Made by a program: the position numbers and the translations under genes. 64,000 bases of DNA from Cryobacterium sp. Y50 (GTDB lineage Bacteria > Actinomycetota > Actinomycetes > Actinomycetales > Microbacteriaceae). The stretch is from positions 1 through 64,000 of the forward strand of contig NZ_PJJM01000096.1 of NCBI RefSeq assembly GCF_002929805.1, written 5' to 3'. Positions within the stretch are counted from its first letter, which is position 1. Each line of letters opens with the position of its first letter. Under the pieces are notes generated by a model, which had not been told where the DNA came from, did not search any database, and saw only the letters and a list, made by a program, of their open reading frames with translations. Of this stretch, positions 5,340-22,779 are shown piece after piece.

Positions 5340-5495
5340 GTGAATAAGAGGTTTCGAACGTTCGAGCCGGCGCCTGTGATGTTGGTACCGCCATCATTGG
5401 CAGAGTGGCTGCCACAAAACCACCTCTCTCGGGTCATCGACGTCGGCGTTAACCTCTGGATCAGCAAGATCCTGTCTCTTCGTACTGATCGATGA
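5340..5495 (+). pseudogene. IS1182-type transposase, N-terminal remnant
   Basis: From GTG 5340 the plus strand encodes about 50 residues starting VNKRFRTFEPAP and continuing with VMLVPPSLAEWLPQNHLSRV, then a TGA at 5493-5495. The LLPPSLxxWLPExHLAR pattern near the N-terminus is characteristic of IS1182-family transposases, which are normally 400-500 residues. The rest of the gene and both terminal repeats are gone. The remnant abuts and slightly overlaps, antisense, the 3' end of the RpiB-like gene at 5461. It marks the left edge of the catabolic cluster and suggests a past rearrangement there. Confidence 0.65.
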
Positions 5496-5934
5496 GTTGC
5501 ACTTTCTTCTGTGATGCCGAATTCTCATCAAATCGATAGGTGAGCCATTCTCGAACGAGGCGTCGAGCAAGTTCGATACCAATCACCCGCTGTCCCATGG
5601 TCAGCACCTGTGCGTTGTTACTCAGTACAAGGCGCTCGACCGAAAAACTGTCGTGGGCAGACGCTGCACGAATGCCAACGACCTTGTTCGCTGCAATTGC
5701 TACGCCGATTCCAGTTCCACAGAACAGCAGAGCGCGGTCAGCTTCACCACGTGCAACAATCTCTGCTGCCGCAACTGCAACCGTGGGGTACCCGGTGTGG
5801 CCATCATCATCGACGCCGACGTCAATCAGCGAACTCACTAGATTATTGGCCGAAAGGTCCATTTTGAGGACCTCTTTGTACTGATGTCCGGCGTCATCGC
5901 TGCCGATCACGATTCGTAATGGTTTTAGCGTCAT
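5461..5934 (-). CDS. RpiB/LacAB-type isomerase, probable D-erythrulose 4-phosphate isomerase
   Basis: A 157-residue RpiB/LacA-family sugar-phosphate isomerase. The start at 5934 gives the conserved [16 protein letters not shown]-terminus and follows an AAGAGA-like ribosome site. The loop [16 protein letters not shown] carries the catalytic Cys, and [22 protein letters not shown] is the phosphate-binding helix region. In erythritol and threitol degraders (EryI of Brucella, DerI of Mycobacterium) close relatives convert D-erythrulose 4-phosphate to D-erythrose 4-phosphate. The pairing with a TIM-like isomerase and a DhaK-type kinase supports that role, although a ribose- or other ketose-phosphate activity is possible. 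It is the last gene of the importer operon. Its final residues (YEETGSC) run into IS-derived sequence, so the tail may have been altered. Confidence 0.82.
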
Positions 5935-5974
5935 CCCTGGATCTCTTTTCTCTGCACAGTACCGATACGAGCGG

Positions 5975-6781
5975 TTAGGACACCTGGTTGGCAAGCGTTT
6001 GACTGAACTCCCATGCCTCGTCAAGGATCAACGCGAAGGCGTCGGGGTCATGGCCAAATCGGCCCAAGAAGAGTCCATCTACCCCGTCGCCGAGGCGGGT
6101 TAGGAGGCCGGGACCCGCGCTTCCCCCGTAAATCACCCGACTTCCCACCAGGCTCGCATCCGCGGTGAGGTAGCCACGAATGCGGCCAACGACGTCACGT
6201 ATATATTCGGGATGAGCGGATTCGGCCGCACCGATAGCCCATTTGGGCTCGTACGCGATAACGACCGGCCCGACTGCACCTGCCTCACGACTCTTTTCAA
6301 GTGAAGCGTCGAGCTGTCGGATGCACTCGAGGGACGCCGCGTCGGCGTTCACCAAGGAATCTTCACCGATGCAAAGAACGGGGATGAGTCCGTTGCGAAA
6401 TGTGGCATACGTCTTAGCCGACACGATCGCATCCGTCTCGCCCAGGACACGGCGTCGCTCGGCGTGCCCAAGTTCTATGTAGGTACATCCAATTTCACGC
6501 AACTGCGGGGCCCCCACCTCTCCGGTGTATGCGCCCGAGTCCTCCCAGAACACGTCTTGGGCACCCCATTTGATATCGGAACCGACCAGGATATCCCGAC
6601 TCGGAACGATCGCCGGGTGGCTGGGTAAGAGAAAAACCTCTGCCAGACCAGAGCGAACCGCTGGGTGGTTTTGGCAGGCGTCGCGCACGCCGCGCACCCA
6701 GTCCAAAGTCGACTGATGGCCCATATACATTTTGAGGCTGGAGCCCAGAATGAACGGGGCTTGAGGAATTTTGGCGCTCAT
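5975..6781 (-). CDS. TIM-like isomerase, probable tetrulose-phosphate isomerase/racemase (EryH/LerI type)
   Basis: A 268-residue TIM-barrel protein of the triose-phosphate isomerase family. It keeps the catalytic Lys (GSSLKMYMG near residue 17), the catalytic His ([10 protein letters not shown]) and the catalytic Glu (AYEPKWAIG). Housekeeping TIMs normally read GNWKMN, GHSERR and AYEPVWAIG at these places. The changed residues are the pattern I associate with the second TIMs of erythritol/threitol loci (EryH, LerI), which interconvert L- and D-erythrulose phosphates. GGSAGPG and [13 protein letters not shown] complete the phosphate-binding end. Its start overlaps the upstream permease stop by four bases. 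A plain TIM function is the alternative. Confidence 0.82.
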
Positions 6782-7860
6782 CGATCCGATACCAATATTG
6801 TCGAAGGTCGGGACTCTTCCTCGTCAATGGATGCCGGTGGCGATGGTTTCTCGGGAGGCTGCCGCAGCCGCCAGTGACGCACGTAGTGATTGAGCACCAT
6901 CACGAGCAAGAGAATGGCACCCCAGACAAAGTTCTTGGCGTAGGGGGAGAACATGAGCGCGTTGAACGCTGTCGACAACAGCTGCAGCAGAACGAGTCCG
7001 ACCGCGAGGCTGATAATGCGTCCTTTGCCACCGAACGGGTTGAATCCTGCCAACACGACGACGAGGATGGCTTGAAGCAGATAGGAATCGCCCACGCCGA
7101 CGCGCATCGAGTTCGCACGTGAGGTCATAATGATTCCTGCGATTCCCACGAGAATCCCGATAAGCGCGTAACTCATCAGAATAACTCGTTCACTTCTTAC
7201 CCCTGAGAACCGCAGCGCAACCTCATTCTCGCCGAAGAGGTAGATGCGGCGGCCCAACCGGGTCCGGCCCAAGACAAACGCGACGATGAGGAACGCGGCG
7301 ACCATCATGATGAAGATAATCGGAATGTTGCCGACTGCCGAGGTACTGAGTTGAGCGAAGGAGGGCACCAGGACAGGAACGCTCTGGCCGGTCGTGATGG
7401 CCATTCCAATCCCCGCGAAGAGAATCATCGTGCTGAGCGTTGCAAGGATCGGCGGCACAGAGATCTTCGCGATGAGGAAGCCGTTAAGAAGGCCGCATAG
7501 CAGTCCTGTAACGAGAGCGGCAACGATCCCGAGAGCAAATAAAATTCCTGAGTTTTCATCTGTCACGGGGATTATCTGGCCAGACATAACGAGAGCTGCC
7601 ATTATGCCGGCAAGGCTCGCAGCGGCGGCCACAGACAGGTCGATTCCCCCGGTAAGCATAGCGATCGCCATGGCGAGCGCTAAGAAGCCAAACTCGCTGA
7701 CTTGCACCGACATCGATTGCAGACCCGTGGGTGAGAAGAGCCGTTGGCCGAGCGTGATGTAGAGCACGAGGATGACGCAGGCTGTCATAAAGACGAGCAC
7801 GGCGAGTTCCTTGTCGCGGAGGACCAGGTTTCGTAGTGAGCGCATCGGGTTCCTATCCAA
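6778..7860 (-). CDS. sugar ABC transporter permease (RbsC type)
   Basis: A 360-residue inner-membrane permease of the BPD_transp_2/RbsC family with about nine to ten hydrophobic segments. The MLTGGIDLSVAAAASLAGIMAAL helix region and the cytoplasmic loop ENEVALRFSGVRSERV match the family's conserved ATPase-contacting loop. It forms a heteromeric importer with the neighbouring permease (7863-8894), the double ATPase and the lipoprotein. The C-terminal 30 residues are a charged tail. Start choice between 7860 and the Met codon at 7845 is uncertain. The substrate is inferred from the downstream isomerases to be a small ketose or polyol. Confidence 0.9.
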   Translation of the reverse strand: MDRNPMRSLRNLVLRDKELAVLVFMTACVILVLYITLGQRLFSPTGLQSMSVQVSEFGFLALAMAIAMLTGGIDLSVAAAASLAGIMAALVMSGQIIPVTDENSGILFALGIVAALVTGLLCGLLNGFLIAKISVPPILATLSTMILFAGIGMAITTGQSVPVLVPSFAQLSTSAVGNIPIIFIMMVAAFLIVAFVLGRTRLGRRIYLFGENEVALRFSGVRSERVILMSYALIGILVGIAGIIMTSRANSMRVGVGDSYLLQAILVVVLAGFNPFGGKGRIISLAVGLVLLQLLSTAFNALMFSPYAKNFVWGAILLLVMVLNHYVRHWRLRQPPEKPSPPASIDEEESRPSTILVSDR

Positions 7861-7862
7861 TA

Positions 7863-8894
7863 CTAATTCGACGAGAAGACAAGGGACCGCTTGTTCAGCT
7901 GTCGCTGGCGGTAGTACATGACGCCGAGGCTAACCATGAGCACGCTTCCAAAGAAGAGGTTGTTCCACGACGCGCCCAATCCGAGGAAGACCAGGGTGGA
8001 CTGGAAGAGCTGCACGATGATGATGCCAAGAACGGCGCCCAAGATCGTGCCCTCCCCGCCAGTGAGTTTCGCACCACCGATCACGACTGCAGCGATGATC
8101 ATCAATTCGGTTCCGATGAGTGAAACAGGATTGATGTAGGAGAGACCACTGAAATAGATGATGCCCATCAGCCCCGACAGAAACCCGGAGTAGCAATAGA
8201 CGAAGAGTTTGGTTCGGAGGAGGCTGATACCGATACGCGATGCCGACTCTTGATTGCTTCCAATGGCGAATACCGTACGACCCAACATGGTTCGGTAGAG
8301 CAAAAACCAGGTAAGCACGATGCAAGCGAGCACGATCAGAAAAAAGACCGAAAGTGAGTATTGCGAGCGTTCCGCACTGATCGTCAGGAGGCTCGTCGAG
8401 CCGAAGTCGAGCATCGACTGCGGAACATCGATCGCCGTATAGGTCTTCGTGCCGAGGACTATTGCCATGAGCCCATGAAAAGCGCTGGCCGTGCCGAGGG
8501 TAACAATCAGCGTTGGCAGCCGGAAGAAATGGATGAGAAGCGCGTTGATCGAGCCGAGCGCCGCCCCGATGACTACGGCAACGAGGATGACGAACAATAG
8601 GTTGTCGAATCCAAGTACTTTCATGAGCCGTACTGAGGTGTATCCCGACACGATTGCAATCGCTGTGAACGACACATCGATGCCACCAGAGATGAGAACC
8701 ACTAGCACCCCTAGAGCGAGGATCATGATTCCCGACCCGTTTCTGATCATGTCAAAAAGTGTCTCGAGGCTGAAAAACTGTGGGTTTTTCACGGCCACGA
8801 TCACGATGTAGACCAAGATGATCGCGAGGAGATACTTCTCCATGGAAGTCATCGGCCGATCGAATGCGCGCCGGAAGAGGGATCGTCGTTGCAT
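7863..8894 (-). CDS. sugar ABC transporter permease (RbsC type)
   Basis: A 343-residue permease, the second RbsC-like subunit of the importer. LISGGIDVSFTAIAIVSGYTSV and the loop IGSNQESASRIGISLLRTKL are the conserved family features, and about nine to ten hydrophobic segments are visible. GGAKLTGGEGTILGAVLG near the C-terminus is also typical. Two different RbsC-type permeases in tandem imply a heterodimeric membrane channel. Only two bases separate it from the downstream permease and six from the ATPase, a tight operon. Confidence 0.9.
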   Translation of the reverse strand: MQRRSLFRRAFDRPMTSMEKYLLAIILVYIVIVAVKNPQFFSLETLFDMIRNGSGIMILALGVLVVLISGGIDVSFTAIAIVSGYTSVRLMKVLGFDNLLFVILVAVVIGAALGSINALLIHFFRLPTLIVTLGTASAFHGLMAIVLGTKTYTAIDVPQSMLDFGSTSLLTISAERSQYSLSVFFLIVLACIVLTWFLLYRTMLGRTVFAIGSNQESASRIGISLLRTKLFVYCYSGFLSGLMGIIYFSGLSYINPVSLIGTELMIIAAVVIGGAKLTGGEGTILGAVLGIIIVQLFQSTLVFLGLGASWNNLFFGSVLMVSLGVMYYRQRQLNKRSLVFSSN

Positions 8895-8900
8895 GGGCTG

Positions 8901-10439
8901 TTACCTCTCACCCGCGGCCTGGTGAACCCGATATTCGGGATCGTTGATGATTTGGACGAGTTCGTCCTTGAAGTTGTCGGCTCGCACCTGTGACTCGTCG
9001 AATCTCTCGAGGATCTCGCCGTCGTGCATGACGACGATTCGATTGCAGTTCGCCACAATTTCTTCTGGCTCGTCGGAGATAAAAATTACACCCACGCCGC
9101 TCTCGGCGAGGCGATGAATCTTGTCGTAAATTTCCGATTTCGAGCCAATGTCGATGCCGACGGTAGGGCTGTCAAGGATGAAGATTTGAGGTTCGCGGGC
9201 GATCCACTTTCCAAGTACAACTTTCTGCTGATTGCCACCCGATAAATTGGCCACGGCGAGCGAAGTGTCCTTGTTGTTGACGCCCATCTCGTTGACCACT
9301 CGTGTCGCTAGAGCCTTCTCCGTCTTGTGATTGAGGATCTTCATTGGAGTCAGGATGCGGTCAAGCATCGTGACCGAGATGTTTGCTTCGACAGACTGTG
9401 TCGCGAAGAGGCCTTGGCTTCCCCGCTCCTCGGGCAGAAGGGCTATGCCGTGTTTCATAGCGTCCCACGGGGCTTTGAGGATAACCGGCTTGCCGTTGAC
9501 CTTGATCTCGCCACCGTCCGGCTTGTTCAACCCGAAGAGTGTCAGTGCAATTTCTGTGCGGCCTGAGCCGAGCAGTCCCGTGAGGCCTACGATATCGCCC
9601 GGGCGCACAGCAAGGTCGATGCCCGAATAATTGCCTTTGCGGCTGAGGTTACTGATTTCCAGCAGTGGTTCCGACTCGGGGCGAGTGCGATGGTATCTCG
9701 TGTACGTCACGTCGCGACCTGTCATATGACGACTCAGGCTGAGCTCGTCGAGCTCGTTCGCTTGAAAATCACCGACCTTTCGACCGTCGCGGAAAATGGT
9801 GATGCTGTCAGCGATCTTGAATACTTCGTCGAGCTTGTGACTGATGAAAACGATCGACAGGCCCCGCGCCTTGAGCTCGAGGATTATTGACAGCAACCGA
9901 GTGACCTCTCGCCCGGTGAGCGCGGTGGTTGGCTCATCCATAAAGAGGAGGCGCGCCTCCATGCTGAGCGCCCGACAGATGGCGACAATTTGCTTGTTTG
10001 CGACTGAGAGCGTTGATACGGGAACGTCTAAGTCGAGTTCGACGCCGACACGTTCTAATTGTTGGCGAGCGATGTCACGCATCGCCCTGCTCCGCACGAA
10101 CTTAGAGCCGTCGTGCATCATTCGATTGACAGCAATGTTCTCGGCCACACTCAAATGACCAAAGAGTGAAAGGTCCTGGTAAATCACCTGCACGCCTGCA
10201 GCGATGGCACTTCGCGGGGTCAAACTACCTACGGTCTCGTCCCCGATCTTAATTTCACCGGCATCGGGCGTGTAGACGCCGGAGATGATCTTCGTGAAGG
10301 TTGACTTTCCGCAGCCGTTCTCGCCGGCGAGGCAGAGAATCTCTCCCTCGCCGATTGTGAAATCCACGCCGCGCAACGCCTTGACGCCGCCGAACGAAAT
10401 AGAGATGTTTGAGGCTGTGAGTAGGGGCTTACCGATCAT
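8901..10439 (-). CDS. sugar ABC transporter ATP-binding protein (RbsA/MglA type)
   Basis: A 512-residue tandem ABC ATPase. The first domain has Walker A GENGCGKSTFTK, signature LSVANKQIVAIC and Walker B LLFMDEPT. The second has the degenerate P-loop GLLGSGRTEIAL, signature LSGGNQQKVVLGKW and FILDSPTVGIDIGS. This asymmetric arrangement is the RbsA/MglA/XylG pattern. I place the start at 10439 (MIGKPLLTASNIS), preceded by AGGA, and not at the upstream in-frame Met at 10526. It energises import through the two permeases, and is the second gene of the operon. Confidence 0.92.
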   Translation of the reverse strand: MIGKPLLTASNISISFGGVKALRGVDFTIGEGEILCLAGENGCGKSTFTKIISGVYTPDAGEIKIGDETVGSLTPRSAIAAGVQVIYQDLSLFGHLSVAENIAVNRMMHDGSKFVRSRAMRDIARQQLERVGVELDLDVPVSTLSVANKQIVAICRALSMEARLLFMDEPTTALTGREVTRLLSIILELKARGLSIVFISHKLDEVFKIADSITIFRDGRKVGDFQANELDELSLSRHMTGRDVTYTRYHRTRPESEPLLEISNLSRKGNYSGIDLAVRPGDIVGLTGLLGSGRTEIALTLFGLNKPDGGEIKVNGKPVILKAPWDAMKHGIALLPEERGSQGLFATQSVEANISVTMLDRILTPMKILNHKTEKALATRVVNEMGVNNKDTSLAVANLSGGNQQKVVLGKWIAREPQIFILDSPTVGIDIGSKSEIYDKIHRLAESGVGVIFISDEPEEIVANCNRIVVMHDGEILERFDESQVRADNFKDELVQIINDPEYRVHQAAGER

Positions 10440-10541
10440 AATCGACCGTCCTAATACTGTCGCGAAATGCGAGATTGGGAAGAGAAATAGGTTGCGGGGA
10501 GAGCCAGAAGACAGCCCTCCCCGCACGCGTGTGCCGTCTGG

Positions 10542-11597
10542 CTAGAAGGCGTATGGAGCTGCCGGGTCGCCTTTGCGAAGCTCCATCGTGGCGTTGCCCA
10601 GAATGAGCTGGCCGTCGACGGTGACGCTGTTGTAGCCGTCGTAGCCAAGGTCGTCACCGGTTGCCACCGTCTCGCCGTTGAGCATGGCGAGCGCGACCGC
10701 GTTGAGGGCGTAACCCCAGCCAGCCGGGTCCCAGGTCTGGGCGTAGCTCATCCAGCCGGCTTCGAGATCCGGCCCGGCAACAGACGGCAAGCTCAGGCTT
10801 ACGTTGGCGATGTCTGTAATGTTCTTCTCCTTGAGCACGGACGCCATGCCGGAGCCGCCAGACGGCGTCGTTGCGAGGAACCCCCTCAAATTGGGATACG
10901 CGTTTACTATCTCCTGGGCAGACGCACGCGACTTGGCGTCATCGTTGTCGTTCTCGTAGGGCTGTTCCGCCACAAGGTGCATGTCGGGGAAGTTCGTCTT
11001 GAGGTAAGCGACCGCCGAGTTGAACCAAGTCATGTGGGATTCGCTTGTCAATGAGCCAACGCTGCCGACATAGTCCCCCTCGCCCCCCATCGCTTCTGCC
11101 AGTCCCTTCGCGTATCCCTCACCGAAGGCCACATTGTCGAATGCTTCGATGTCGAAGTCAATGGAGTCGGTGCCGACGAGTGCGGCCGCCTCCGTCGTGC
11201 CGACAATGATTCCCTGGTCACGGGCCTTCTTCAGGGTGGGCGCGATTCCCAGCGGGTCGTTGGGCACAACGATGATGGCGTCGACCCCTTGTGCGATGAG
11301 GTCTTCGACGATGGCAACCTGCTTGGCAGAATCCCCCGTGTCTGGTCCCGTTTGCCACGCCTCAACGGTGGCAGAGTTGTCGTCATTGAACATGGTGACA
11401 CCCTCGCTCATTCGCTGGAACCAGGTGATGCCCTCGACTTTAGAGACGGTCGCGATGCGGAACGCGCCCTCCGAGTTGCCAGCGGCGGGCTTGGCTGAGT
11501 CCCCTCCCACGTCGCCGACGCTGCTGCAGCCGGCTGCCATAGCGACGGTAGCGAACGCGACCACCATTCCCGTGATTAGCCTACGCGTAGTGATCAT
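10542..11597 (-). CDS. sugar ABC transporter substrate-binding lipoprotein
   Basis: A 351-residue substrate-binding protein of the RbsB-like periplasmic-binding fold. The signal region ends in a lipobox (VAMAAGC, Cys at about residue 24), so the mature protein should be a membrane-anchored lipoprotein. Segments IVEDLIAQGVDAIIVVPNDP and GIIVGTTEAAALVGTDSIDF resemble the two sugar-binding lobes. A strong ribosome site (AAGGAG) lies nine bases before the ATG. It is the first gene of the operon SBP-ATPase-permease-permease-TIM-RpiB, controlled by the operator/promoter at 11668-11732. Confidence 0.9.
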   Translation of the reverse strand: MITTRRLITGMVVAFATVAMAAGCSSVGDVGGDSAKPAAGNSEGAFRIATVSKVEGITWFQRMSEGVTMFNDDNSATVEAWQTGPDTGDSAKQVAIVEDLIAQGVDAIIVVPNDPLGIAPTLKKARDQGIIVGTTEAAALVGTDSIDFDIEAFDNVAFGEGYAKGLAEAMGGEGDYVGSVGSLTSESHMTWFNSAVAYLKTNFPDMHLVAEQPYENDNDDAKSRASAQEIVNAYPNLRGFLATTPSGGSGMASVLKEKNITDIANVSLSLPSVAGPDLEAGWMSYAQTWDPAGWGYALNAVALAMLNGETVATGDDLGYDGYNSVTVDGQLILGNATMELRKGDPAAPYAF

Positions 11598-11667
11598 TCG
11601 AGTTCTCCTTTGAACTGTGAGTGTGGCCGTAGTCGACCGTTGAGGCCTCTTGAGTGCCTGAAATAAC

Positions 11668-11732
11668 GTTATGCATGCACGCGATCAGCCAAAATTGGGA
11701 CTTTCCCTATGGAGCGGTAGGGAACTCCCTAC
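11668..11732 (-). promoter_or_regulatory. promoter and bipartite operator of the importer operon
   Basis: The distal element GTAGGGAACTCCCTAC (11717-11732) has seven-base arms around a two-base centre. The proximal element near 11697-11710 has GGGA and TCCC arms. On the minus strand the proximal AGTCC is followed after exactly 24 bases by CATAACGTT (-10 at 11668-11673). The E1/E2 promoter aligns with it base for base in layout. Predicted binding site of the fused LuxR-type regulator at 16815-18668. Confidence 0.68.
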
Positions 11733-11769
11733 GTACTGACTCACGCCCGCTTCCTGCCTTAATTAAATA

Positions 11770-11803
11770 CAGCACGCCCCGATATGCCATTCGGGGCGTG
11801 CTG
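11770..11803 (-). terminator. intrinsic terminator of the E1-E2 transcript
   Basis: A perfect 13-bp stem (CAGCACGCCCCGA at 11770-11782 with its complement at 11791-11803) and an 8-base loop lie 37 bases beyond the E2 stop. On the minus strand it is followed by TATTTAATTAAGG, an A/T-rich run. Confidence 0.75.
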
Positions 11804-11839
11804 GAATATGGATATCTGATGCGCGGCGAGTTCCCCTGA

Positions 11840-15340: not shown

Positions 15341-15455
15341 CGATTCCTCGTTTACTCTCGGCGCTGCATAGTGAAGAAAGGTGGTGATTCGCAGTTCACG
15401 CGCAGGATGGGGACTCTGCGAAACTCGGCGACCTGATCGGTGCCGTTGCACCAAC

Positions 15456-15523
15456 GCTATAGGCGGGCGTGAGCGACAGAAATTAGGACTTCCCCCTATC
15501 TCTGACGGTAGGGAAGCCCCTAC
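15456..15523 (-). promoter_or_regulatory. promoter and bipartite operator of the E1-E2 operon
   Basis: Distal element GTAGGGAAGCCCCTAC (15508-15523) and proximal element at 15485-15500. On the minus strand AGTCC is followed after 24 bases by TATAGCGTT (-10 at 15456-15461). Spacing and sequence match the importer promoter, which supports shared control. Confidence 0.68.
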
Positions 15524-15539
15524 GTCATCGACTTCACCG

Positions 15540-16568
15540 CTATCCGAACAGAGTTAAGGCCTCGTCGTAACGGCTCTGCGGAACGGTCTTGAGCTGGCCG
15601 ATCGCCTCGCTGAGGTCAACCCGAACGATCTCGGTAGAGCGGACGGCCACCATCTGGCCCCAGTCTTCGTCGTGCGCTGCGTCGACTGCAGCCATGCCCA
15701 GTCTGGTAGCTAATACTCGATCGGAAGCGCTCGGTACACCACCGCGCTGGATGTGACCGAGAGTGGTGGAGCGGGTCTCGATTCCGGTGCGCTCTTCGAT
15801 GGTGGGGGCGAGAAATTCGCCGATTCCACCGAGACGGGGCCGAGAGAAGGCGTCGAGTCCGCGTGCGGAATGCGCGCGCGTCATGCCTTCGGGCACGAAT
15901 CCCTCCGCCACCACGATCAGGGGAGGACGGCCACGCTGGAATGGCTTGCCAACCCAATCGCAGATCTCGTCGATCGTCGCGTTTTGTTCGGGAATTAGGA
16001 TGGCGTGTGCGCTGGTCGCCATCCCCGCGTGAAGGGCGATCCAGCCGACGTGCCTGCCCATGACTTCGGCGATCATGCAACGATGATGCGACTCTCCCGT
16101 AGTCTTCAATCGGTCGATCGCTTCGGTAGCGATCTCAACGGCCGTATCGAAGCCAAAAGTGTAGTCCGTTGCTGAAATATCATTGTCCACGGTCTTGGGC
16201 ACTCCGATAATGCGCACGCCCTCATCGCTCAGCATTTTGGCCACCGTCAAGGTGCCTTCACCACCGATCACGATAAGTGCGTCGAGTCGCATTGAACGCA
16301 AGCTAGCCACAACCTTTTGGACGGTGCCTCCATCGTCGAACGGCGAGGTACGAGAGGTACCAAGAATGGTGCCGCCAAGCTTCGCGATGCCACGCACGCT
16401 TTTCCAGTCGAGTTCGATGGCGTTCTGCTCGACCACTCCCCTCCATCCATCGAGGAGCCCGAGGAATTCATCTTTGTGCCCCCGAATACCGCGCAAGACA
16501 CAGGCGCGGATCACCGCGTTGAGTCCGGGACAATCCCCGCCACTGGTCAGAATTCCTATGCGCGCCAT
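15540..16568 (-). CDS. 6-phosphofructokinase family kinase (ATP type by active-site residues)
   Basis: A 342-residue PfkA-family enzyme. ILTSGGDCPGLNAVIR is the N-terminal nucleotide-binding loop, PKTVDND holds the catalytic Asp, and EVMGRHVGW lines the sugar-phosphate site. At the position that separates ATP from pyrophosphate enzymes it reads GGEGT (Gly, ATP type), combined with the Lys of PKTVDND, as in the group III actinobacterial ATP-PFKs. It lies divergently from the regulator gene and shares an operator with it. Together with the aldolase and HAD genes it may phosphorylate a ketose phosphate other than fructose 6-phosphate; simple glycolytic PFK is the conservative reading. Confidence 0.88.
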   Translation of the reverse strand: MARIGILTSGGDCPGLNAVIRACVLRGIRGHKDEFLGLLDGWRGVVEQNAIELDWKSVRGIAKLGGTILGTSRTSPFDDGGTVQKVVASLRSMRLDALIVIGGEGTLTVAKMLSDEGVRIIGVPKTVDNDISATDYTFGFDTAVEIATEAIDRLKTTGESHHRCMIAEVMGRHVGWIALHAGMATSAHAILIPEQNATIDEICDWVGKPFQRGRPPLIVVAEGFVPEGMTRAHSARGLDAFSRPRLGGIGEFLAPTIEERTGIETRSTTLGHIQRGGVPSASDRVLATRLGMAAVDAAHDEDWGQMVAVRSTEIVRVDLSEAIGQLKTVPQSRYDEALTLFG

Positions 16569-16663
16569 CAGTCGTTACCCACTACTCTCTTGATACCGTC
16601 GTGGTCGCGACCTTCTGCGGCGGCGACCACGTCAGGTAACCACGTAGCTGAGGTTGTAACCAT

Positions 16664-16697
16664 GAGGAGTTCCCCGACCCAGCGATGAGGGTAAACC
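16664..16697. promoter_or_regulatory. operator in the divergent PFK/regulator promoter region
   Basis: GAGGAGTTCCCC (from 16664) and GAGGGTAAACC lie with the same two-arm layout as the other cluster operators but with more mismatches. On the plus strand TCTAATGTG follows about 18-25 bases later, a possible -10 for the regulator. The site could act in both directions and allow autoregulation. Confidence 0.5.
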
Positions 16698-16814
16698 AGC
16701 ACAACAATCAATGGTCTAATGTGAAAATAACGTAACGCTCGTTCTCCCGGCACCGAGGCCGTGAGGGATGTTCATCGTCCTCAACGCGTACGTCGGTCGG
16801 ATGGAACAGCAAAG

Positions 16815-18668
16815 ATGCAGAGCAAACTAGACGTGGACTCGGCTACCTTCGATAGCCTCCAGCAGCAGCTCGACACCGTGACCGAGCTAGCACGCGACCT
16901 CGCTGGACGTTTCGAACTCTCCCCGCTTCTCGAGCGCATCCTGCGCCACGCCACGATACTCCTAGGATGCGATTCGGGGTCAATCTCGCTCGTAGATGAA
17001 AAACTCGGAACTTACACGAAAAAGGCTGACGTTGGCGTCGGCTGCCAGGAGGGCCAGACATTCCCGCTCTCTGAAGGTTTCACGGGTGAAGTCGTGCGTA
17101 AACGAGGCACCATAATATTGGACGAATACTCGCAAGTACGCGCCGGACACATCTCCGCCGATGACCCGCGATGGCACTGCTCGGTTATCGGCGTGCCTAT
17201 TCTCTGGGACGACGAGGTGATTGGCAGCTGCATAATCTTCAGCGCGAGCCCTGGTCGCGTGTTCACCGAGGCAGATGCACGCCTGGCCGAGCTGTTCGCC
17301 AATCATGCCGCGATCGCGCTGGCTAATTCCCGCCTCCATAGCCGAGCTTCCGAGCGCGAACGTGAGGCTGCAATCGCGGAAGAACGCGAGAGATCCGTGC
17401 GTGATGTGCATGAGACGGTTGGCCGTTCCCTGGCATCACTCCTTCTCAGCCTTGATGAGGCCGAAGAGGACATTAGAGACGACAAACCGGCCAAGCAGCA
17501 CATTGGCACCGCACGCGCCATCGCACTGGATGCGCTGGCCGAGACACGGCGTACAGCGCTCGGTCTGGGTCCAACTTCCCTCGCCGGGCGCACTTTGGCA
17601 GAGGCAGTCGGGACGGAGCTGACTTGGGTCGAGTCAATGAGCGCTGCAGCGACAGCCCTCGTCGTTGTGGGCACCCCGCGCGAACTCCCGCCCGAGATCG
17701 CGCACCAGGCGTTCAAAATCGTCCAAGAAGCACTGAGTAATGTCGTCACGCACGCTAGGGCAAGTACCGTTCGAGTCGGTCTTATCTACAGAACACACGA
17801 GGTCTCTGTCCTGATCGAAGATAACGGCCGTGGCTTCGATTTGCAAGCTGCCCACGGTGACCATTCTTCTCTTCCCTCAGGCTGCCTCGGATTGCATGGG
17901 ATGGCTTCACGGGTTAGCCACTTGGGTGGAGAGCTGAACATCGAGACCACTCCCGGTTGGGGTACAAAGGTTCGGGCAACAATTCCGGATGTCGGGCCAG
18001 GGCCCGGCGGCGCGGTCCAGCCGCGTTGGAAAGTACTGATCGCCAATGACCAGCCAATTGTCAGTGCCGGCCTCGTGCGGCTATTACACCTCAATGAGCC
18101 CGCCATCAATGTAACCGCCGAGGTCAACACACTCGCCCAACTACTCGACGCCTACGAGCTTTTACGTCCCGACGTACTCTTGGTCGATCTTCAAATGCTC
18201 CAGAGCGACCTTTCCGGCACGATAGGCAAGGTCCGCGCACTTGACCCCGAGGTCGCCATCGTCGTGCTGACAGACAATCCAACAGCAGACCAAATGCGCT
18301 TCGCGACCCAAGCAGGTGTGCGGGGGTATATTAAGCGCGGGTCAAATGTCGACGCTATCGTGCGCATCATCGTGGCCGCAGCTCAGGGCGATGCATTGAT
18401 TGACGGCACCATGCTTGAGCACCTCAGGGAAACTTCGCGCGCCGGACTCGGCGGGACAGACACTCCCACTGCTCGTGAACGAGAAGTGCGCGAAATGGTT
18501 ACCCAGGGGCTGCCCGACAAGCAAATCGCGACCCTACTCGAGATATCCGTCAAGACCGTCGAGAAGCACGTCGGATCTCTGCTGCGAAAGACTGGAGCTC
18601 GCAATCGAACGATGTTGGTGAGCATGAACGGCTCGGCGATGCAGAACTCCGGCTACCCCGCCCTATAG
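16815..18668 (+). CDS. one-polypeptide two-component system: GAF sensor, histidine kinase, receiver, LuxR-type HTH
   Basis: A 617-residue fused signalling protein with no membrane segment, so it should sense a cytoplasmic signal. Domains in order: GAF (about 25-172); HisKA_3-type dimerisation helix with the candidate phospho-His 199 in RDVHETVGRSL; HATPase (about 290-392; EALSNVVTHA, DNGRGF, HGMASRV); NarL-type receiver (about 405-525, phospho-acceptor Asp458 in LLVDLQM, Lys508); and LuxR HTH (about 548-605, TAREREV and KTVEKHVGSLLRK). In the receiver the usual acidic pair is replaced by Asn-Asp (LIANDQP). A GTG at 16761 could add 18 residues. Kinase, receiver and DNA-binding output are normally on two proteins. 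It is probably the regulator of this cluster. Confidence 0.86.
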   Translation: MQSKLDVDSATFDSLQQQLDTVTELARDLAGRFELSPLLERILRHATILLGCDSGSISLVDEKLGTYTKKADVGVGCQEGQTFPLSEGFTGEVVRKRGTIILDEYSQVRAGHISADDPRWHCSVIGVPILWDDEVIGSCIIFSASPGRVFTEADARLAELFANHAAIALANSRLHSRASEREREAAIAEERERSVRDVHETVGRSLASLLLSLDEAEEDIRDDKPAKQHIGTARAIALDALAETRRTALGLGPTSLAGRTLAEAVGTELTWVESMSAAATALVVVGTPRELPPEIAHQAFKIVQEALSNVVTHARASTVRVGLIYRTHEVSVLIEDNGRGFDLQAAHGDHSSLPSGCLGLHGMASRVSHLGGELNIETTPGWGTKVRATIPDVGPGPGGAVQPRWKVLIANDQPIVSAGLVRLLHLNEPAINVTAEVNTLAQLLDAYELLRPDVLLVDLQMLQSDLSGTIGKVRALDPEVAIVVLTDNPTADQMRFATQAGVRGYIKRGSNVDAIVRIIVAAAQGDALIDGTMLEHLRETSRAGLGGTDTPTAREREVREMVTQGLPDKQIATLLEISVKTVEKHVGSLLRKTGARNRTMLVSMNGSAMQNSGYPAL

Positions 18669-18732
18669 AGGATTCCCCTACTCCGCACGGAGGGGGAACT
18701 CCTAATAGCCCCCGACTGGCTACCTCTCTTAG
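18666..18732 (+). promoter_or_regulatory. promoter and bipartite operator of the aldolase-HAD-kinase operon
   Basis: TAGAGGATTCCCCTAC (18666-18681) and AGGGGGAACTCC (18691-18702) form the two elements. Twenty-four bases after the second comes TCTTAG (18727-18732), in the -10 position defined by the other two promoters. The aldolase GTG follows about 30 bases later, after AAGGAGG. Confidence 0.65.
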
Positions 18733-18761
18733 TGTGAGGGCAGTCAAACAAGGAGGTTGCT

Positions 18762-19622
18762 GTGGGAGTCGTACCACTGAGGGAAATTCTGGATCGAGCA
18801 TTCAGAGAGCGGTATGGCGTACCGGCCATCAACATTTTCAACGATCTGACGTTGGAAGCTGTGCTGGCTGGTGCGGTCAGGGCGAACTCGCCCGTCATCG
18901 TCCAGACGTCGGTCAAGACCGTTCGTAGCATCGGTCCCAAGGCTTTGGCCAGCATGTGGCGCTCTATGACGGATGGCATCACTATTCCGGTCACACTGCA
19001 CCTGGATCATTGCCCCGACCGTGAAGTTCTCTCGACCTGTCTCCGTGAGGGCTGGAATTCCGTGCTGTTCGATGCATCGGAACTGCCCGTTGCTGAGAAC
19101 CAACGCCAGACGATCGAGGTCGTTAAGGAGGCTCGGTCATTCGGCGCAGACGTTGAAGGCGAAATCGAGGCGATTACGGGAGTCGAAGACGGACACGGCT
19201 CCGATACCGAGGCTGCCCGCGAATCACTCGAAACTTCGTTGCGCTTCATCGAAGCTACCGGAGTCGACGTGTTTGCCCCATCCATCGGTAATGCCCATGG
19301 CAGTTACAAAAGCGCCCCGGTCCTAGACGTCCAGCGCGTAACCGACATCGTGGAGCGTCGCCCGATCCCCATCGCGCTGCACGGCGGCAGTGGGCTGACC
19401 ACGGAGCAGTTCCAGGACTTAATCTCCCGGGGTGCCGCCAAGGTCAACATCTCTACCGCCATGAAAGAGGCATACATGAAGGCCAACCTTTCATTCCTTC
19501 GAGAGACAGAAAAAGCCAATAAGTGGGACCCGCCGTCGCTGTTTACGTCGGTAAGCCGCGACCTCACCGACCTCGTAGAAGGCCTCGCCCAGCAGTTCGG
19601 CAGTGCAGGAAAGGCCTGGTGA
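18762..19622 (+). CDS. class II fructose-bisphosphate-type aldolase
   Basis: A 286-residue zinc-dependent class II aldolase of the FbaA/GatY family. VTLHLDHCPDREV carries the first metal-binding His and the catalytic-side Asp, VEGEIEAITGVEDGHG the Glu-rich loop, PSIGNAHGSYK the second His, and ALHGGSGL the third His with the phosphate-binding Gly loop. It reversibly cleaves a ketose 1-phosphate or bisphosphate to DHAP and an aldehyde. The GTG start follows a strong AAGGAGG site. It is the first gene of an operon with HAD phosphatase and DhaK-DhaL genes. Whether the substrate is fructose 1,6-bisphosphate, tagatose bisphosphate or a shorter ketose bisphosphate cannot be decided here. Confidence 0.9.
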   Translation: MGVVPLREILDRAFRERYGVPAINIFNDLTLEAVLAGAVRANSPVIVQTSVKTVRSIGPKALASMWRSMTDGITIPVTLHLDHCPDREVLSTCLREGWNSVLFDASELPVAENQRQTIEVVKEARSFGADVEGEIEAITGVEDGHGSDTEAARESLETSLRFIEATGVDVFAPSIGNAHGSYKSAPVLDVQRVTDIVERRPIPIALHGGSGLTTEQFQDLISRGAAKVNISTAMKEAYMKANLSFLRETEKANKWDPPSLFTSVSRDLTDLVEGLAQQFGSAGKAW

Positions 19623-20452
19623 CAGCGGTGCCCACGCTTATTTTCGACTGCGATGGCGTTCTCGCCGACACCGAGCAAGATGGCCACCTCAGAGCCTTCA
19701 ACGAGACATTCGCGTTCTATGATCTACCAGCGCGTTGGAGCGTCGTCGATTACGCCGAAAAGGTCCGCATCGGCGGAGGCAAGGAACGACTGAAGAGTCT
19801 TCTCACCCCCGAGTTCGTTGTGGATGCCGGCTTGCCCCGCGACATCGCCGGTCAGACGGAAATTGTCGCGGCCTGGCACCGCAAGAAGACCGAGATCTAC
19901 ACGAGCCTCGTCGCGGACGGAGTGATGCCGCCCCGCCCCGGCATCGCGCGGATTGTGCATGCGGCGAGCACGGCCGGCTGGAATCTAGCCTGCGCCTCAA
20001 CCTCTGCAGAAGCTTCCGTTCGCGCCGTGCTCTCGCATGCTGTTGGGGCTGATCTCGCTGCACAGTTTTCGGTCTTCGCCGGGGATGTCGTGCCAGCCAA
20101 GAAGCCTGCCCCTGATATCTACCTGCTTGCCATTAATGAGCTTGGAGTTGATGCCGACGATGTGATCGTCATAGAAGACAGTAACAACGGTCTGAGGGCC
20201 GCCGTTGGCGCGGGTCTACGCACCGTCGTCACGGTGAGCACTTTTACCGTAGATGAAGACTTCTCCGATGCATCGCTCGTCGTATCCTCGCTCGGTGATC
20301 CGTCACCTGGCGAAACGACTCGAGTACTCAATGATCCATTGCGGATAGGGCCCGGAGCCCTTGTCTCGCTCATTGATCTCAGCCGAATCCTCGCTGCACC
20401 TCGTTTCAAGCATGAAACGCACGTTCACTACAACAGGAAGGTCGCGTCATGA
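19619..20452 (+). CDS. HAD family sugar-phosphate phosphatase (CbbY/beta-PGM-like)
   Basis: A 277-residue HAD hydrolase. Motif I is FDCDGVLADTE (nucleophile and acid/base Asp), motif II is in ACASTSAEAS, motif III Lys is in AKKPAPDIY, and motif IV is VIEDSNNGLRAA. I use the GTG at 19619, which overlaps the aldolase stop (GTGA), because the longer frame would lie inside the aldolase gene. Relatives include CbbY, a xylulose 1,5-bisphosphatase, and beta-phosphoglucomutases. Coupling to the aldolase suggests removal of a phosphate from an aldol product or from a dead-end bisphosphate. It overlaps the kinase start by four bases. Confidence 0.85.
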   Translation: MTAVPTLIFDCDGVLADTEQDGHLRAFNETFAFYDLPARWSVVDYAEKVRIGGGKERLKSLLTPEFVVDAGLPRDIAGQTEIVAAWHRKKTEIYTSLVADGVMPPRPGIARIVHAASTAGWNLACASTSAEASVRAVLSHAVGADLAAQFSVFAGDVVPAKKPAPDIYLLAINELGVDADDVIVIEDSNNGLRAAVGAGLRTVVTVSTFTVDEDFSDASLVVSSLGDPSPGETTRVLNDPLRIGPGALVSLIDLSRILAAPRFKHETHVHYNRKVAS

Positions 20453-22179
20453 CGCGCCTAGTTAACAATCCCGCGGACTTTCCGGCTGAACTTGTCGAGG
20501 GATTCATTGAGTCGAATTCGCGCTACGTGCGCAAAGTCTTTGGGGGCGTCGTTCGCGGCACGGAATCACGACCGGGAAAGGTGGCCGTCATCTCCGGCGG
20601 TGGCACTGGACACTACCCGGGGTTCCTGGGGTGGGTTGGCACCGGTCTGCTCGATGGTGCCGTCACTGGCAACATCTTCTCCTCCCCCTCCGCCTCTCAG
20701 GCTTGCAGCGTGGCCAGGGCCGCCGATCAAGGTGGCGGCGTAATAATCGCCTTCCTTAACTACGCGGGCGATGTTTTGCACTTCGGTCAGGCAGCAGAGC
20801 GGCTGCGAGCCGATGGTCTCGAGGTGCGAACCTGCGTCATTACCGACGACGTCGCATCCGCCACTACAGAGAACCATGCCAAACGCCGCGGCATCGCGGG
20901 CGGACTGGCCGTACTGAAAGTCACTGCTGCTGCCGCTGAAGCTGGGCTCGATATCGACGAGGTCGTGCGGGTTTTCAATAACGTTAACGACCGCACACGT
21001 ACTTTCGGCGCTGCCTTTTCCGGCTGCACCCTCCCCGGCGCTGACCACCCCCTGTTCGAAGTGCCCGAGGGTAAAATCGGTGTCGGCCTCGGTGTACACG
21101 GCGAAGCTGGCATCTACGAAACTGATCTCGGCACTGCCGACGACGTGGCTAAACTCCTCGTGGATAAGCTTCTCGAAGACGTCCCCGCGAACCCAGGAAA
21201 GCGCGTTATCGCCGTTCTCAATGGTCTTGGGTCGGCCAAGTATGAAGAGCTGTTCGTCACCTACCACTCAGTGAATGTTCGACTAAAAGCTGCTGGGCTC
21301 GACGTTGTCGACGGTGAAGTCGGAGAGTTCATGACGTCGCTCGACATGGGTGGGGTATCACTTTCGCTGATCTGGCTCGACGATGAGATCGAAAAGTATT
21401 GGTTTGCGCCGTGCGACACGCCAGCAGTGCAGCGTTCCCCCATGACAGCGAATCAGCTGCCCGCTGACCGCATTTTCAACACAGCAGCGGAGCCGCTGAA
21501 AGTACACACGCGGGGAGGAAACCAATCCTGCACGGCCGCCGCTTTCATCTCCGTAGGCCTTAGTCGGGTGAGAGATCTCATCGCCGAAAATGCCGAGATG
21601 CTCGGTGACTTGGATGCAATCGCGGGCGATGGCGATCACGGCATAGGTATGACTCGGGGATCCCACGCCGCCGCCGAGGCTGTTCAGTGGCTGGTATCAG
21701 AGGGTGCCGGCGCTCAGACTGCTCTTGTAGGCGCTGGTGATCGTTGGTCTGAACAAGCCGGTGGTGCATCAGGTGCTTTGTGGGGCGCCGCACTTACCGC
21801 CGCCGGTAACGCACTGGGCGATGATGCGCTGCCGGACGCTGCAGCCCAATCCCGCGCGATCCGGGCATTCGTCGCCTCGATCATTCAGCTTGGAGGCGCA
21901 TCCATCGGTGACAAAACGATGGTTGATGCCCAAGTTCCGTTTGCCGATGCCTTCGAGTTGGCAGTTGCGCACGGCGCGTCCGCATCCGATGCGTGGAAGG
22001 TAGCAGCCAAAACGTCTAAGGACGCAGCGGACGCCACAGCAGCGCTCGTGCCACTCATTGGACGAGCAAGGGTACTGGCAGAGCGATCGGTCGGCTCTGC
22101 TGACCCGGGTGCAATCTCATTCTCGATGATCGTCTCGGAAATTGCTGAATTGCACGCAGCATCTGTGGCCCGGAAATAA
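20449..22179 (+). CDS. DhaK-DhaL fused ketose kinase, probable erythrulose/dihydroxyacetone kinase
   Basis: A 576-residue ATP-dependent ketone kinase with the DhaK domain at about residues 1-330 and DhaL at about 365-575. DhaK has the substrate loop VISGGGTGHYPGF, GNIFSSPSASQ, and the His that forms a covalent hemiaminal with the substrate in GLGVHGEAG. DhaL shows the ATP-Mg motif AIAGDGDHGIGM and GGASGALWG. Dihydroxyacetone kinases usually have Glu where this has Tyr (GGGSGHEP versus GGGTGHYP). I recall Tyr in the tetrulose kinases (LerK/DerK type), so erythrulose is a good candidate substrate. The TIM-like and RpiB-like isomerases in the cluster would take its product to erythrose 4-phosphate. 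Plain DHA kinase is the alternative. Confidence 0.87.
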   Translation: MTRLVNNPADFPAELVEGFIESNSRYVRKVFGGVVRGTESRPGKVAVISGGGTGHYPGFLGWVGTGLLDGAVTGNIFSSPSASQACSVARAADQGGGVIIAFLNYAGDVLHFGQAAERLRADGLEVRTCVITDDVASATTENHAKRRGIAGGLAVLKVTAAAAEAGLDIDEVVRVFNNVNDRTRTFGAAFSGCTLPGADHPLFEVPEGKIGVGLGVHGEAGIYETDLGTADDVAKLLVDKLLEDVPANPGKRVIAVLNGLGSAKYEELFVTYHSVNVRLKAAGLDVVDGEVGEFMTSLDMGGVSLSLIWLDDEIEKYWFAPCDTPAVQRSPMTANQLPADRIFNTAAEPLKVHTRGGNQSCTAAAFISVGLSRVRDLIAENAEMLGDLDAIAGDGDHGIGMTRGSHAAAEAVQWLVSEGAGAQTALVGAGDRWSEQAGGASGALWGAALTAAGNALGDDALPDAAAQSRAIRAFVASIIQLGGASIGDKTMVDAQVPFADAFELAVAHGASASDAWKVAAKTSKDAADATAALVPLIGRARVLAERSVGSADPGAISFSMIVSEIAELHAASVARK

Positions 22180-22221
22180 CCCGCTACTTCTGATACAAAT
22201 ACGAAACATGACTAGGAGCTA

Positions 22222-22779
22222 ATGATGGCAATCCCAGGTATTCGCGGCATGGAACACATCGGTTTTACGGTCCCCGACATCAACGAGGCGTGTGATTTCT
22301 TCGAGAAGATTCTTGGAGCTCAGACGCTCTTTGTTGCAGCAACGGATTTCCGGAACGACGACACTGACTGGATGGCCGAGCACCTTCGGGTCAACCCGCG
22401 CGCCGTCATCAAAGAGTTTCGGTATCTGCGTCTAGGGAATGGCAGCAACCTTGAGGTCTTCGAGTACGAGTCCCCCGACCAGAACCCGATCCAGCCGAAG
22501 AATAGCGACATTGGTGGACACCACTTGGCCTTCTACGTTGACGACATCTCCGCGGCTATTAATTACCTCAAAGAGAACGACGTCACGGTCTTGGGTGAGC
22601 CGACCGTCTATGATTCCGGTCCCAACCTAGGGCTCACGTGGTGCTATTTCATGGCTCCGTGGGGGATGCAGCTGGAGATCGTTTCGTCGCCCGACGGCAC
22701 CGCCTACGACGATCAGGCCAAAGCATCTGGCGGAGCCCGCTTGTTCCACCCCGCACTGGTCGCCGAGACCGCGTACTAG
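22222..22779 (+). CDS. VOC family (glyoxalase/dioxygenase superfamily) protein
   Basis: A 185-residue protein of the vicinal oxygen chelate fold. GMEHIGFTVPDINEACDFFEKILGA opens the first beta-alpha-beta module, GGHHLAFYVDDISAAINYL the second, and WGMQLEIVSSP ends it. The HIGF and HHLAF His residues and the LEIV Glu are in metal-ligand positions. It follows the kinase by 42 bases after AGGAGCTA and is likely the last gene of that operon. Possible roles are epimerase, lyase or glyoxalase on a reactive sugar-derived aldehyde; the sequence does not decide. Confidence 0.8.
   Translation: MMAIPGIRGMEHIGFTVPDINEACDFFEKILGAQTLFVAATDFRNDDTDWMAEHLRVNPRAVIKEFRYLRLGNGSNLEVFEYESPDQNPIQPKNSDIGGHHLAFYVDDISAAINYLKENDVTVLGEPTVYDSGPNLGLTWCYFMAPWGMQLEIVSSPDGTAYDDQAKASGGARLFHPALVAETAY

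Follow-up and report, generated by a model that had tools for sequence, protein, structure and literature searches.

A proposed island for small-ketose catabolism in Cryobacterium sp. Y50, probably gained horizontally, with a lipoyl E1/E2 complex as candidate ketolase

Gene content and layout

The stretch of DNA analysed here (the window) comprises positions 1 to 64,000 of contig NZ_PJJM01000096.1 of Cryobacterium sp. Y50 (RefSeq assembly GCF_002929805.1). At 5461-22779 (~17 kb) it carries a block of 14 genes, each matching its own protein family, which we read, tentatively, as a horizontally gained island for the catabolism of a small ketose, with a tetrulose as the most likely substrate. All 14 genes named in the original prediction, which was made from the sequence alone, are present and belong to the families given; the HAD phosphatase can now be placed more narrowly as CbbY-like. 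Four apparent operons are found: E1-E2; binding protein-ATPase-permease-permease-TIM-RpiB; 6-phosphofructokinase (PFK); and sensor/regulator-aldolase-HAD-DhaKL-VOC.

The first three operons lie on the minus strand. The importer operon encodes a RhaS/LsrB-like substrate-binding protein (10542..11597; TIGR02637 95.6 bits, below the cut-off of 342.25; closest PDB entries 5bra, 3d02 and 9i1m), the ATPase (8901..10526) and two permeases (6778..7860 and 7863..8894) of a sugar ATP-binding cassette transporter, a LerI/EryH-like TIM of the tetrulose-phosphate isomerase type (5975..6781; PF00121) and an RpiB/DerI-like sugar-phosphate isomerase (5461..5934; TIGR02133 RPI_actino 194.8 bits, cut-off 168.2; open reading frame (ORF) open to 6024). 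The thiamine pyrophosphate (TPP)-dependent E1 is a fused alpha-beta protein (13148..15340; PF00676, PF02779, PF02780; ORF open to 15454), and the E2 acyltransferase (11840..13147) has lipoyl, E3-binding and catalytic domains (PF00364, PF02817, PF00198). PFK (15540..16568) scores 446.8 bits against TIGR02483 (cut-off 430.55).

On the plus strand are a one-protein sensor-regulator with GAF, HisKA_3, HATPase, receiver and LuxR domains (16761..18668), a class II ketose-bisphosphate aldolase with HLDHC and NIST motifs (18762..19622), the CbbY-like HAD phosphatase (19619..20452), a fused DhaK-DhaL kinase of the ATP type (20449..22179) and a VOC protein proposed to be a hydroxyketone epimerase (22222..22779; PF13669/PF00903). 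Judged against relatives, the true starts are probably later than the ORFs allow for RpiB (5934), E1 (15340) and HAD (GTG at 19619). An E3 gene is absent from the 14. So is a polyol dehydrogenase, as had been claimed, and the block thus lacks one mark of a tetritol utilisation cluster. Beyond VOC, a small minus-strand ORF (116 aa, 22907-23257) without an NCBIfam match precedes a hemL-like gene.

Genomic setting

Taken in 2-kb steps, the GC content is 0.55-0.61 between 6 and 24 kb; the remaining steps have 0.605-0.69. The flanks of the block lie 18.1 kb apart in the window; at the same site in seven of eight genomes of the genus the spacing is 1.08, 1.56, 1.57, 1.58, 3.88, 3.89 and 4.60 kb, and in the eighth (G317) no match to the left flank was found. 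By this spacing the block qualifies as an island, with conserved sequence on both sides. No fused E1 was found at E<=1e-200 in the five same-genus genomes of the family sample. The nearest named relative in the aldolase scan is Cryobacterium sp. Y11. Locus L085 comes from a near-identical genome (93-98%) and is not an independent witness.

Elsewhere the host genome has a separate TIM (on C104, 36% identical to that of the block), a second PFK (on C95, 64% identical), two further class II aldolase matches and several other E1 pairs. The block RpiB is the only one in the genome at E<=1e-8.

A shared operator

Perfect GTAGGGAANNCCCTAC palindromes lie ahead of the importer operon (11717..11732) and ahead of E1 (15508..15523); the shared operator claimed earlier is real. 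With up to three mismatches, both strands of the window hold eight matches, against 2.08 +/- 1.45 expected, and none of 100 shuffles reached eight; the two sites, each counted once per strand, make up four of the eight, and the statistic is partly circular because the pattern was built from the very sites scored. For that reason, the recurrence of the palindrome at the same two promoters in Salinibacterium (L045, L046 and L089, one genome) is better evidence. It is also found in L085. In 10 of the 14 loci scanned there was no such site.

A related inverted repeat, GGATTCCCC...GGGGGAA-TCC, precedes the aldolase (18668..18703) and was found by eye in Salinibacterium and L092 too. Downstream of E2 there is a terminator-like inverted repeat with 13-bp arms (11770..11803), which makes a separate promoter for the importer operon probable.

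Conservation of the block and its core

The original prediction had called for a search for joint occurrence of these families. In Salinibacterium amurskyense (L089, also G197 and G302) 13 of the 14 genes form one block, and only the PFK match lies elsewhere. A Nitriliruptoraceae metagenome-assembled genome (MAG) has homologues of all 14, spread over three contigs: L101 with regulator, aldolase, HAD, DhaKL, VOC, PFK and binding protein (and, beyond the regulator, a transketolase), L195 with E1 and E2, and L210 with ATPase, permeases, RpiB and TIM, plus an aldolase of the DeoC/LacD family. The three contigs may adjoin one another in that genome.

A wider sample was drawn by scanning GTDB genomes with an alignment of the aldolase and keeping the best 80 of 336 relatives; many loci stop at contig edges, so that gene counts are lower bounds. 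Among these 80, the aldolase and HAD occur in 80 and DhaK/DhaL in 79. The sensor-regulator follows with 53, PFK with 11, E2 with 8, binding protein with 4, VOC with 3 and RpiB with 1. E1 matches number nine, seven of them of the window type (71-97% identical); the other two (L134 and L144, 32-37%) are ordinary E1s and were left out of that count. Window-type E1 is also found on other contigs of the L101 genome (whole) and the L093 genome (in pieces). In most core loci DhaL and DhaK are separate proteins, 30-40% like the fused kinase of the window. A small protein family recurs in 22 of the 80 loci, a count that, like those for E1 regions below, rests on a rough ORF caller that did not cope with loci of low GC; the one member scanned (in L097) is HbpS-like.

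These counts do not suit the two separate branches of the original prediction. The aldolase and HAD are one conserved pair that goes with a dihydroxyacetone (DHA) kinase with or without E1/E2. They therefore form the core, to which E1/E2, the tetrulose-type trio and VOC are additions. On gene content, then, aldolase, CbbY-like phosphatase and DHA kinase make up a widespread actinobacterial module.

Three core loci deserve comment. L114 (WNZI01000021.1), titled Vibrio cholerae 35D, has an Arthrobacter-type aldolase-HAD-DhaL-DhaK set with regulator and PFK and is most likely a mislabelled or contaminated assembly. L096 (PBTV01000032.1), a MAG titled Rubrivirga sp. NP52, has nearly the gene order of the Micrococcales contigs L095 and L140 and is probably mis-binned. 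In marine Nanopelagicales (L090, 906-8957), genes beside the module were named by eye as RpiB, DJ-1-like, FAD-linked oxidase, isomerase, Tm-1-like and creatininase-like.

The kinase-TIM-RpiB trio

The block TIM falls in a 10-row clade with tetritol/apionate-type TIMs (support 96/92; 99/98 with five more rows). Its partners there come from tetritol-type clusters of Salinibacterium and of an Arthrobacter plasmid, and from a Pantoea cluster. Triose-phosphate isomerases (TPIs) form a separate clade (100/100), and many inner forks of the tree are open. The motifs SLKM, GHAERR and GGSAGPG replace those of TPI. The solved L-erythrulose-1-phosphate isomerase 11ef scores 115.9 bits against the block protein, no better than several TPIs. 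By clade and motif the block TIM goes with the LerI/EryH type and not with the triose-phosphate isomerases.

Salinibacterium has, in addition to its full block, a second DhaK-TIM-RpiB trio beside a short-chain dehydrogenase/reductase (SDR) and an importer. Aldolase, HAD, E1/E2 and VOC of the block kinds are absent from the 20 kb around it. Because this organism keeps both the bare trio and the full block, the latter is not simply the tetritol route of this group. Clade, motifs and second trio together bear out the tetrulose-type kinase, TIM and RpiB proposed earlier.

The fused kinase stays under the cut-off for glycerone kinase (TIGR02361, 338.7 bits against 574.95) and exceeds that of the wider PRK14479 (690.7 against 492).

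In marine genomes a tetrulose-type trio coexists with the E1 cluster but is unlinked to it. G304, G305, G306 and G308 have, on a separate contig, importer ATPase genes, a TIM and an RpiB (48-50% like that of the window); in G304, G306 and G308 a DhaKL (35%) lies opposite the TIM-RpiB pair.

Fused E1 and lipoyl E2

A survey at E<=1e-200 detected the fused E1 in 66 of 299 family genomes, at 67 places. Surroundings were fetched for 37 of the 66 places other than that of the window. Aldolase and HAD are present at the three most similar (77, 69 and 69%). At the other 34, one of which is a 3.3-kb contig, neither aldolase nor HAD occurs, DhaKL is found in one, and VOC in all 34, usually divergent and adjoining E1. 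Of 47 regions, 40 of them fetched stretches and the other 7 plasmid loci, 18 have a family with an aldehyde dehydrogenase like succinate-semialdehyde dehydrogenase among its members, 19 a GntR family and 5 an SDR family. Such neighbours would fit an acyloin pathway of diol dehydrogenase, hydroxyketone cleavage and aldehyde oxidation. In the E1 tree, which leaves out G026, L085, L095 and L140, the sugar-cluster E1s, that of the window included, are a single clade (7 rows, 100/100). Tree and neighbourhoods place the window's E1 in a clade tied to the aldolase module and nested in a broader VOC-paired family.

Several other features of this E1/E2 family were seen. A DddP-like M24 hydrolase (111.5 bits, cut-off 600) is a frequent neighbour of E1, in 14 regions. 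The fused E1 and E2 module (L051-L084, L009-L014) has Microbacteriaceae hosts, some with genomes of 1.2-1.8 Mb, and is carried as well by plasmids from Caballeronia, Pseudomonas, Rhodococcus, Rhodovulum, Citricoccus and Paenarthrobacter; in the stretches shown for the Rhodococcus and Rhodovulum modules no VOC is annotated.

Both E1 and E2 are below every NCBIfam cut-off listed for them, including the pyruvate dehydrogenase equivalogs (E1 244.4 against 393.85 and 232.8 against 454; E2 402.1 against 445). E1 has E1_dh (PF00676) and not Transketolase_N (PF00456), and E2 is not of the AcoC type (PRK14875 59.6 bits, cut-off 307). In ordinary E1 alpha subunits, such as those of pyruvate and branched-chain 2-oxo acid dehydrogenases, a GHS loop carries the active-site His. 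The corresponding loop of the window is HQNGPFPGSAFGYR, not of the GHS type; of the 17 rows of the fused family, 16 have HQN, and L015 has HQS.

Aldolase and CbbY-like phosphatase

The aldolase is a clear family member (PF01116, 259 bits) of uncertain specificity, and its HLDH, NAHG and HGG motifs give the catalytic Asp/His pattern. It scores 223.7 bits with the fructose-bisphosphate (FBP) aldolase model and 196.7 bits with the tagatose-bisphosphate aldolase model, both below cut-off, and its predicted structure matches sulfofructose-phosphate, FBP and tagatose-bisphosphate aldolases alike. The closest solved relatives of the HAD protein are 4uav from Arabidopsis (198.7 bits) and CbbY 4uar (138.9 bits); the next HAD scores 44.5. 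With its full-length match to CbbY proteins and its GGKER motif it is of the CbbY type, and xylulose 1,5-bisphosphate (XuBP) phosphatase activity is predicted. Two plant CbbY-type enzymes are reported to strip the 1-phosphate from XuBP and to favour it over ribulose 1,5-bisphosphate ~5000- and 1000-fold, the XuBP having been produced by aldol addition of dihydroxyacetone phosphate (DHAP) to glycolaldehyde phosphate (PMC10212915). Because XuBP arises in this way, an aldolase beside a CbbY-type phosphatase would be a natural pair. Pairs with the HLDHC, NIST and GGKER motifs were found in all eight variant loci checked, as far away as Shinella.

VOC protein and ketose 3-epimerase

Fifteen genomes were searched for the VOC protein and for a ketose 3-epimerase; ten carry the sugar-type E1. 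Four of these (G000, G299, G302, G307) carry VOC within the block, and at E<=1e-20 they show no ketose 3-epimerase. The other six (G301, G303, G304, G305, G306, G308) have the epimerase and no VOC in the sugar-type E1 cluster. The epimerases are 71-100% like the L090 protein, that of G301 being a contig-edge fragment. In five of the six the epimerase is on the contig of the module, adjoining aldolase or E1; the G304 pieces lie on separate contigs. VOC genes of G304, G305, G306 and G308 adjoin a second, broad-type E1, and G301 and G303 have no VOC at E<=1e-8. Few independent events are represented, since G299 is a near copy of G000 and the marine genomes are akin to one another.

The closest solved relatives of the epimerase are 7cj4 ('Epimerase', 404 bits) and 8yeb ('Ketose 3-epimerase', 302 bits); against the psicose 3-epimerase cut-off of 300 it reaches 168.6. 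Those of VOC include, weakly, methylmalonyl-CoA epimerase (29 bits). As the two proteins replace each other, VOC may be read as a hydroxyketone epimerase, an analogous replacement.

The module with other enzymes

The aldolase-HAD pair has also been found with a different TPP enzyme. In Cryobacterium plasmid pA10BH1 the order is aldolase-HAD-DhaL-DhaK-aquaporin-heme-binding protein-TIM-RpiB-split transketolase, with a TIM of the TPI type. Shinella plasmid p1 has an FGGY kinase, an importer, aldolase and HAD (38% and 47% identical to those of the window, with the same motifs), a split E1, transaldolase, an E2 of the acetoin dehydrogenase type and Lpd. G026 combines E1/E2 and aldolase-HAD with an iron-type dehydrogenase, a NagD-type HAD, an FGGY kinase and a zinc dehydrogenase; G173 has the same set by eye, plus a divergent TIM ~13 kb from the aldolase. 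Cleavage of a ketol is the role these variants would share, and this is the main reason for reading E1/E2 as a ketolase.

The pA10BH1 cluster (L217, 11980-20809) adjoins a Tn3 transposase and looks like a mobile version resembling the xylulose-monophosphate cycle. The Shinella cluster (L219, 8001-16828) has an importer with a DUF2160 gene and seems to be a similar pathway that was put together independently. G026 and G173 encode RuBisCO-like proteins next to FGGY genes that resemble glycerol kinase (L050, 12816-14093; L048, 12294-13574); the G026 protein has an MtnW-type model as its best match but reaches none of the cut-offs (OiaX 190 of 700).

Proposed pathway

The best joint explanation, put forward tentatively, is an island for a ketose, most likely a tetrulose, in which E1/E2 would act as a ketolase, aldolase and HAD would rebuild sugar phosphates, and VOC would be an epimerase. 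The DNA shows directly which genes are present, that they are conserved together, that an operator stands at two promoters and to which family each enzyme belongs; from this we infer the steps. The importer would take up the ketose, and DhaKL would phosphorylate a ketotetrose to L-erythrulose 1-phosphate. This the LerI-like TIM would convert to D-erythrulose 4-phosphate, and RpiB would carry the latter to D-erythrose 4-phosphate (E4P). Fused E1 and E2, with an E3 from elsewhere in the genome, would form an oxidative ketolase that cuts the C2-C3 bond of a ketose (or its phosphate) in the manner of transketolase. The two-carbon unit would pass to lipoate and then to coenzyme A (CoA), giving glycolyl-CoA and an aldose (or its phosphate) two carbons shorter.

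Two routes could follow. In one, E1/E2 would split D-erythrulose 4-phosphate to glycolyl-CoA and glycolaldehyde phosphate, the aldolase would join the latter to DHAP as XuBP, and HAD would yield xylulose 5-phosphate (Xu5P), which E1/E2 would cleave to glycolyl-CoA and glyceraldehyde 3-phosphate (G3P), TPI regenerating DHAP. In the other, through RpiB, the aldolase would turn E4P and DHAP into sedoheptulose bisphosphate (SBP) and HAD this into sedoheptulose 7-phosphate (S7P), which would give glycolyl-CoA and ribose 5-phosphate; this would pass by way of ribulose 5-phosphate and an epimerase to Xu5P. On either balance C4 would yield two C2, that is, two glycolyl-CoA per tetrulose phosphate, with DHAP/G3P catalytic. 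VOC would epimerise the carbon beside the keto group, as the ketose 3-epimerase would in marine relatives. PFK, E3 and the fate of glycolyl-CoA have no account within the block.

In its full form the proposal is unlikely to hold in every part: a natural oxidative ketolase pathway with a lipoyl E1/E2 of a new family, a dedicated aldolase-XuBP/SBP-phosphatase and a VOC-type epimerase, turning tetrulose into two glycolyl-CoA with no CO2 lost and no call on housekeeping transketolase or transaldolase. In the open PubMed Central (PMC) literature, none of the matches listed describes a pathway of this kind.

A number of observations weigh against this proposal. RpiB exceeds the RPI_actino cut-off and falls below that of the DerI model (NF051858, 148.1 against 240). 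In the marine E1 clusters no TIM is present in the loci seen, and the TIM of the marine TIM-RpiB pair belongs to a third clade (~32% like that of the window); being of another clade and unlinked, it implies that in those genomes the entry of a tetrulose is not bound to E1. No window-type E1 is seen in 73 of the 80 core loci, contig ends included, and the core must therefore have a wider job. The domain families of E1 are those of 2-oxo acid dehydrogenases, so that its substrate may be a 2-oxo acid, and the altered loop makes ordinary transfer to lipoate itself an assumption. The CbbY-like HAD could serve mere metabolite repair, and PFK and the phosphatase would be opposed if both use hexose phosphates. 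The structure model of VOC is weak (pLDDT 64.7), with unspecific fold matches. Near the E1 of G173 and that of G026, the 37 kb fetched in each case contain no VOC and no named substitute for it; the epimerase idea leaves this unexplained.

Alternative explanations

Plain use of a tetritol or tetrulose is an unlikely alternative. The trio would produce E4P, aldolase and HAD would lead through SBP to S7P, and E1/E2 would be a co-regulated dehydrogenase of the 2-oxo acid or pyruvate type for the extra flux. Bare tetritol-type clusters do have the same trio, and the domains of E1/E2 are those such a dehydrogenase would have. However, the bare clusters work without E1/E2, aldolase and HAD, both E1 and E2 miss every NCBIfam cut-off, the genome has its several other E1 pairs, and no gene among the 14 would yield a 2-oxo acid. 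With no such gene, the 2-oxo acid that the original prediction allowed as a substrate loses ground; its cleavage of a keto sugar to glycolyl-CoA is retained.

Improbable, too, is DHA or formaldehyde assimilation of the xylulose-monophosphate type. DhaKL would make DHAP, aldolase and HAD a hexose or heptulose phosphate, and RpiB and the TPP enzyme would rearrange the products; with LerI/DerI this would be the equivalent in nature of the synthetic erythrulose monophosphate cycle. The pA10BH1 cluster joins just such genes, and a transketolase gene lies beside the module in L101. DHAP aldolase, LerI and DerI are used in the synthetic cycle, but FbaA reportedly failed to support that cycle in vivo (PMC10733421). 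The importer points to a sugar, E2 would be left without a role, and none of the 14 genes would produce DHA or formaldehyde; formaldehyde assimilation in the window was rejected on this last ground.

Use of a rare ketohexose is very unlikely. RpiB would act as an aldose/ketose 6-phosphate isomerase, PFK and a tagatose-bisphosphate-like aldolase would lead to two triose phosphates, and E1/E2 and VOC would serve the end product. The NIST motif has Ser where FBP aldolases have Asp, the two aldolase model scores are close, and PFK is retained in L085 and L101. Yet PFK is absent from the Salinibacterium block and from the loci of marine E1 clusters, there is no hexose kinase, and HAD, DhaKL and the LerI-like TIM would have no job.

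Other candidates were discarded: an ordinary glycolysis cluster, in view of the separate TIM, the second PFK and the two further class II aldolase matches elsewhere in the genome, and a chance neighbourhood of unrelated operons, as the set recurs in Salinibacterium and the Nitriliruptoraceae genome and forms an island with conserved sequence on either side. A reading of the shared operator as a DosR box was considered and likewise put aside. A hypoxia regulon, suggested by the GAF-kinase, was set aside; an Arthrobacter oxygen study gives a DhaK spot at 4.18-fold, taken as high versus low oxygen, with the DhaK copy unspecified (PMC5775200), and does not decide the matter.

Relation to known systems

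The ketolase proposal shares elements with several pathways. The known tetritol/erythrulose route uses LerK-LerI-DerI or EryH/EryI. Like it (as partly covered in PMC10733421), the block has a DhaK-type kinase, TIM-like and RpiB-like isomerases and an RbsABC-type importer; unlike it, the block lacks a polyol dehydrogenase and adds aldolase, CbbY-like HAD, E1/E2, VOC, PFK and sensor-regulator. The synthetic erythrulose monophosphate cycle (PMC10733421) likewise uses a DHAP aldolase with LerI and DerI, but was engineered for formaldehyde and is without E1/E2, CbbY-like HAD and VOC.

The Pantoea At-9b plasmid cluster (L216), presumably a D-apionate pathway, has DhaKL adjoining a LerI-type TIM, and RpiB and transketolase lie close by. 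In contrast to the block it has lactonase-like and dehydrogenase-like genes, and aldolase-HAD, E1/E2 and VOC are not annotated in the 16.7 kb shown, for which the gene table is incomplete. The acetoin dehydrogenase system, AcoABCL, offers the parallel of a TPP-E1 and lipoyl E2 proposed to split an alpha-hydroxyketone into acyl-CoA and aldehyde, whereas the block has a fused E1 of another family with an altered active-site loop, sugar-phosphate partners and a VOC partner. The HAD resembles CbbY XuBP phosphatases in its full length and motif, but is paired with an aldolase and a kinase, and no RuBisCO is among the 14 genes. In non-oxidative glycolysis and phosphoketolase cycles, cleavage of a ketose phosphate with aldolase and bisphosphatase yields only C2 units; the block would give glycolyl-CoA and NADH, not acetyl phosphate.

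Significance

The observation that these families occur together is confirmed, and the tetrulose interpretation is partly supported and has been extended, with a real chance that a new reaction type is involved. Glycolyl-CoA is of interest for synthetic carbon-saving pathways. If the proposal is true, conversion of a ketose to glycolyl-CoA by a lipoyl complex would be a new type of reaction in central carbon metabolism. It would also give functions to the widespread, so far unassigned fused E1 family, to its VOC partner and to the aldolase-phosphatase-kinase module across Actinobacteria, including aquatic lineages with small genomes.

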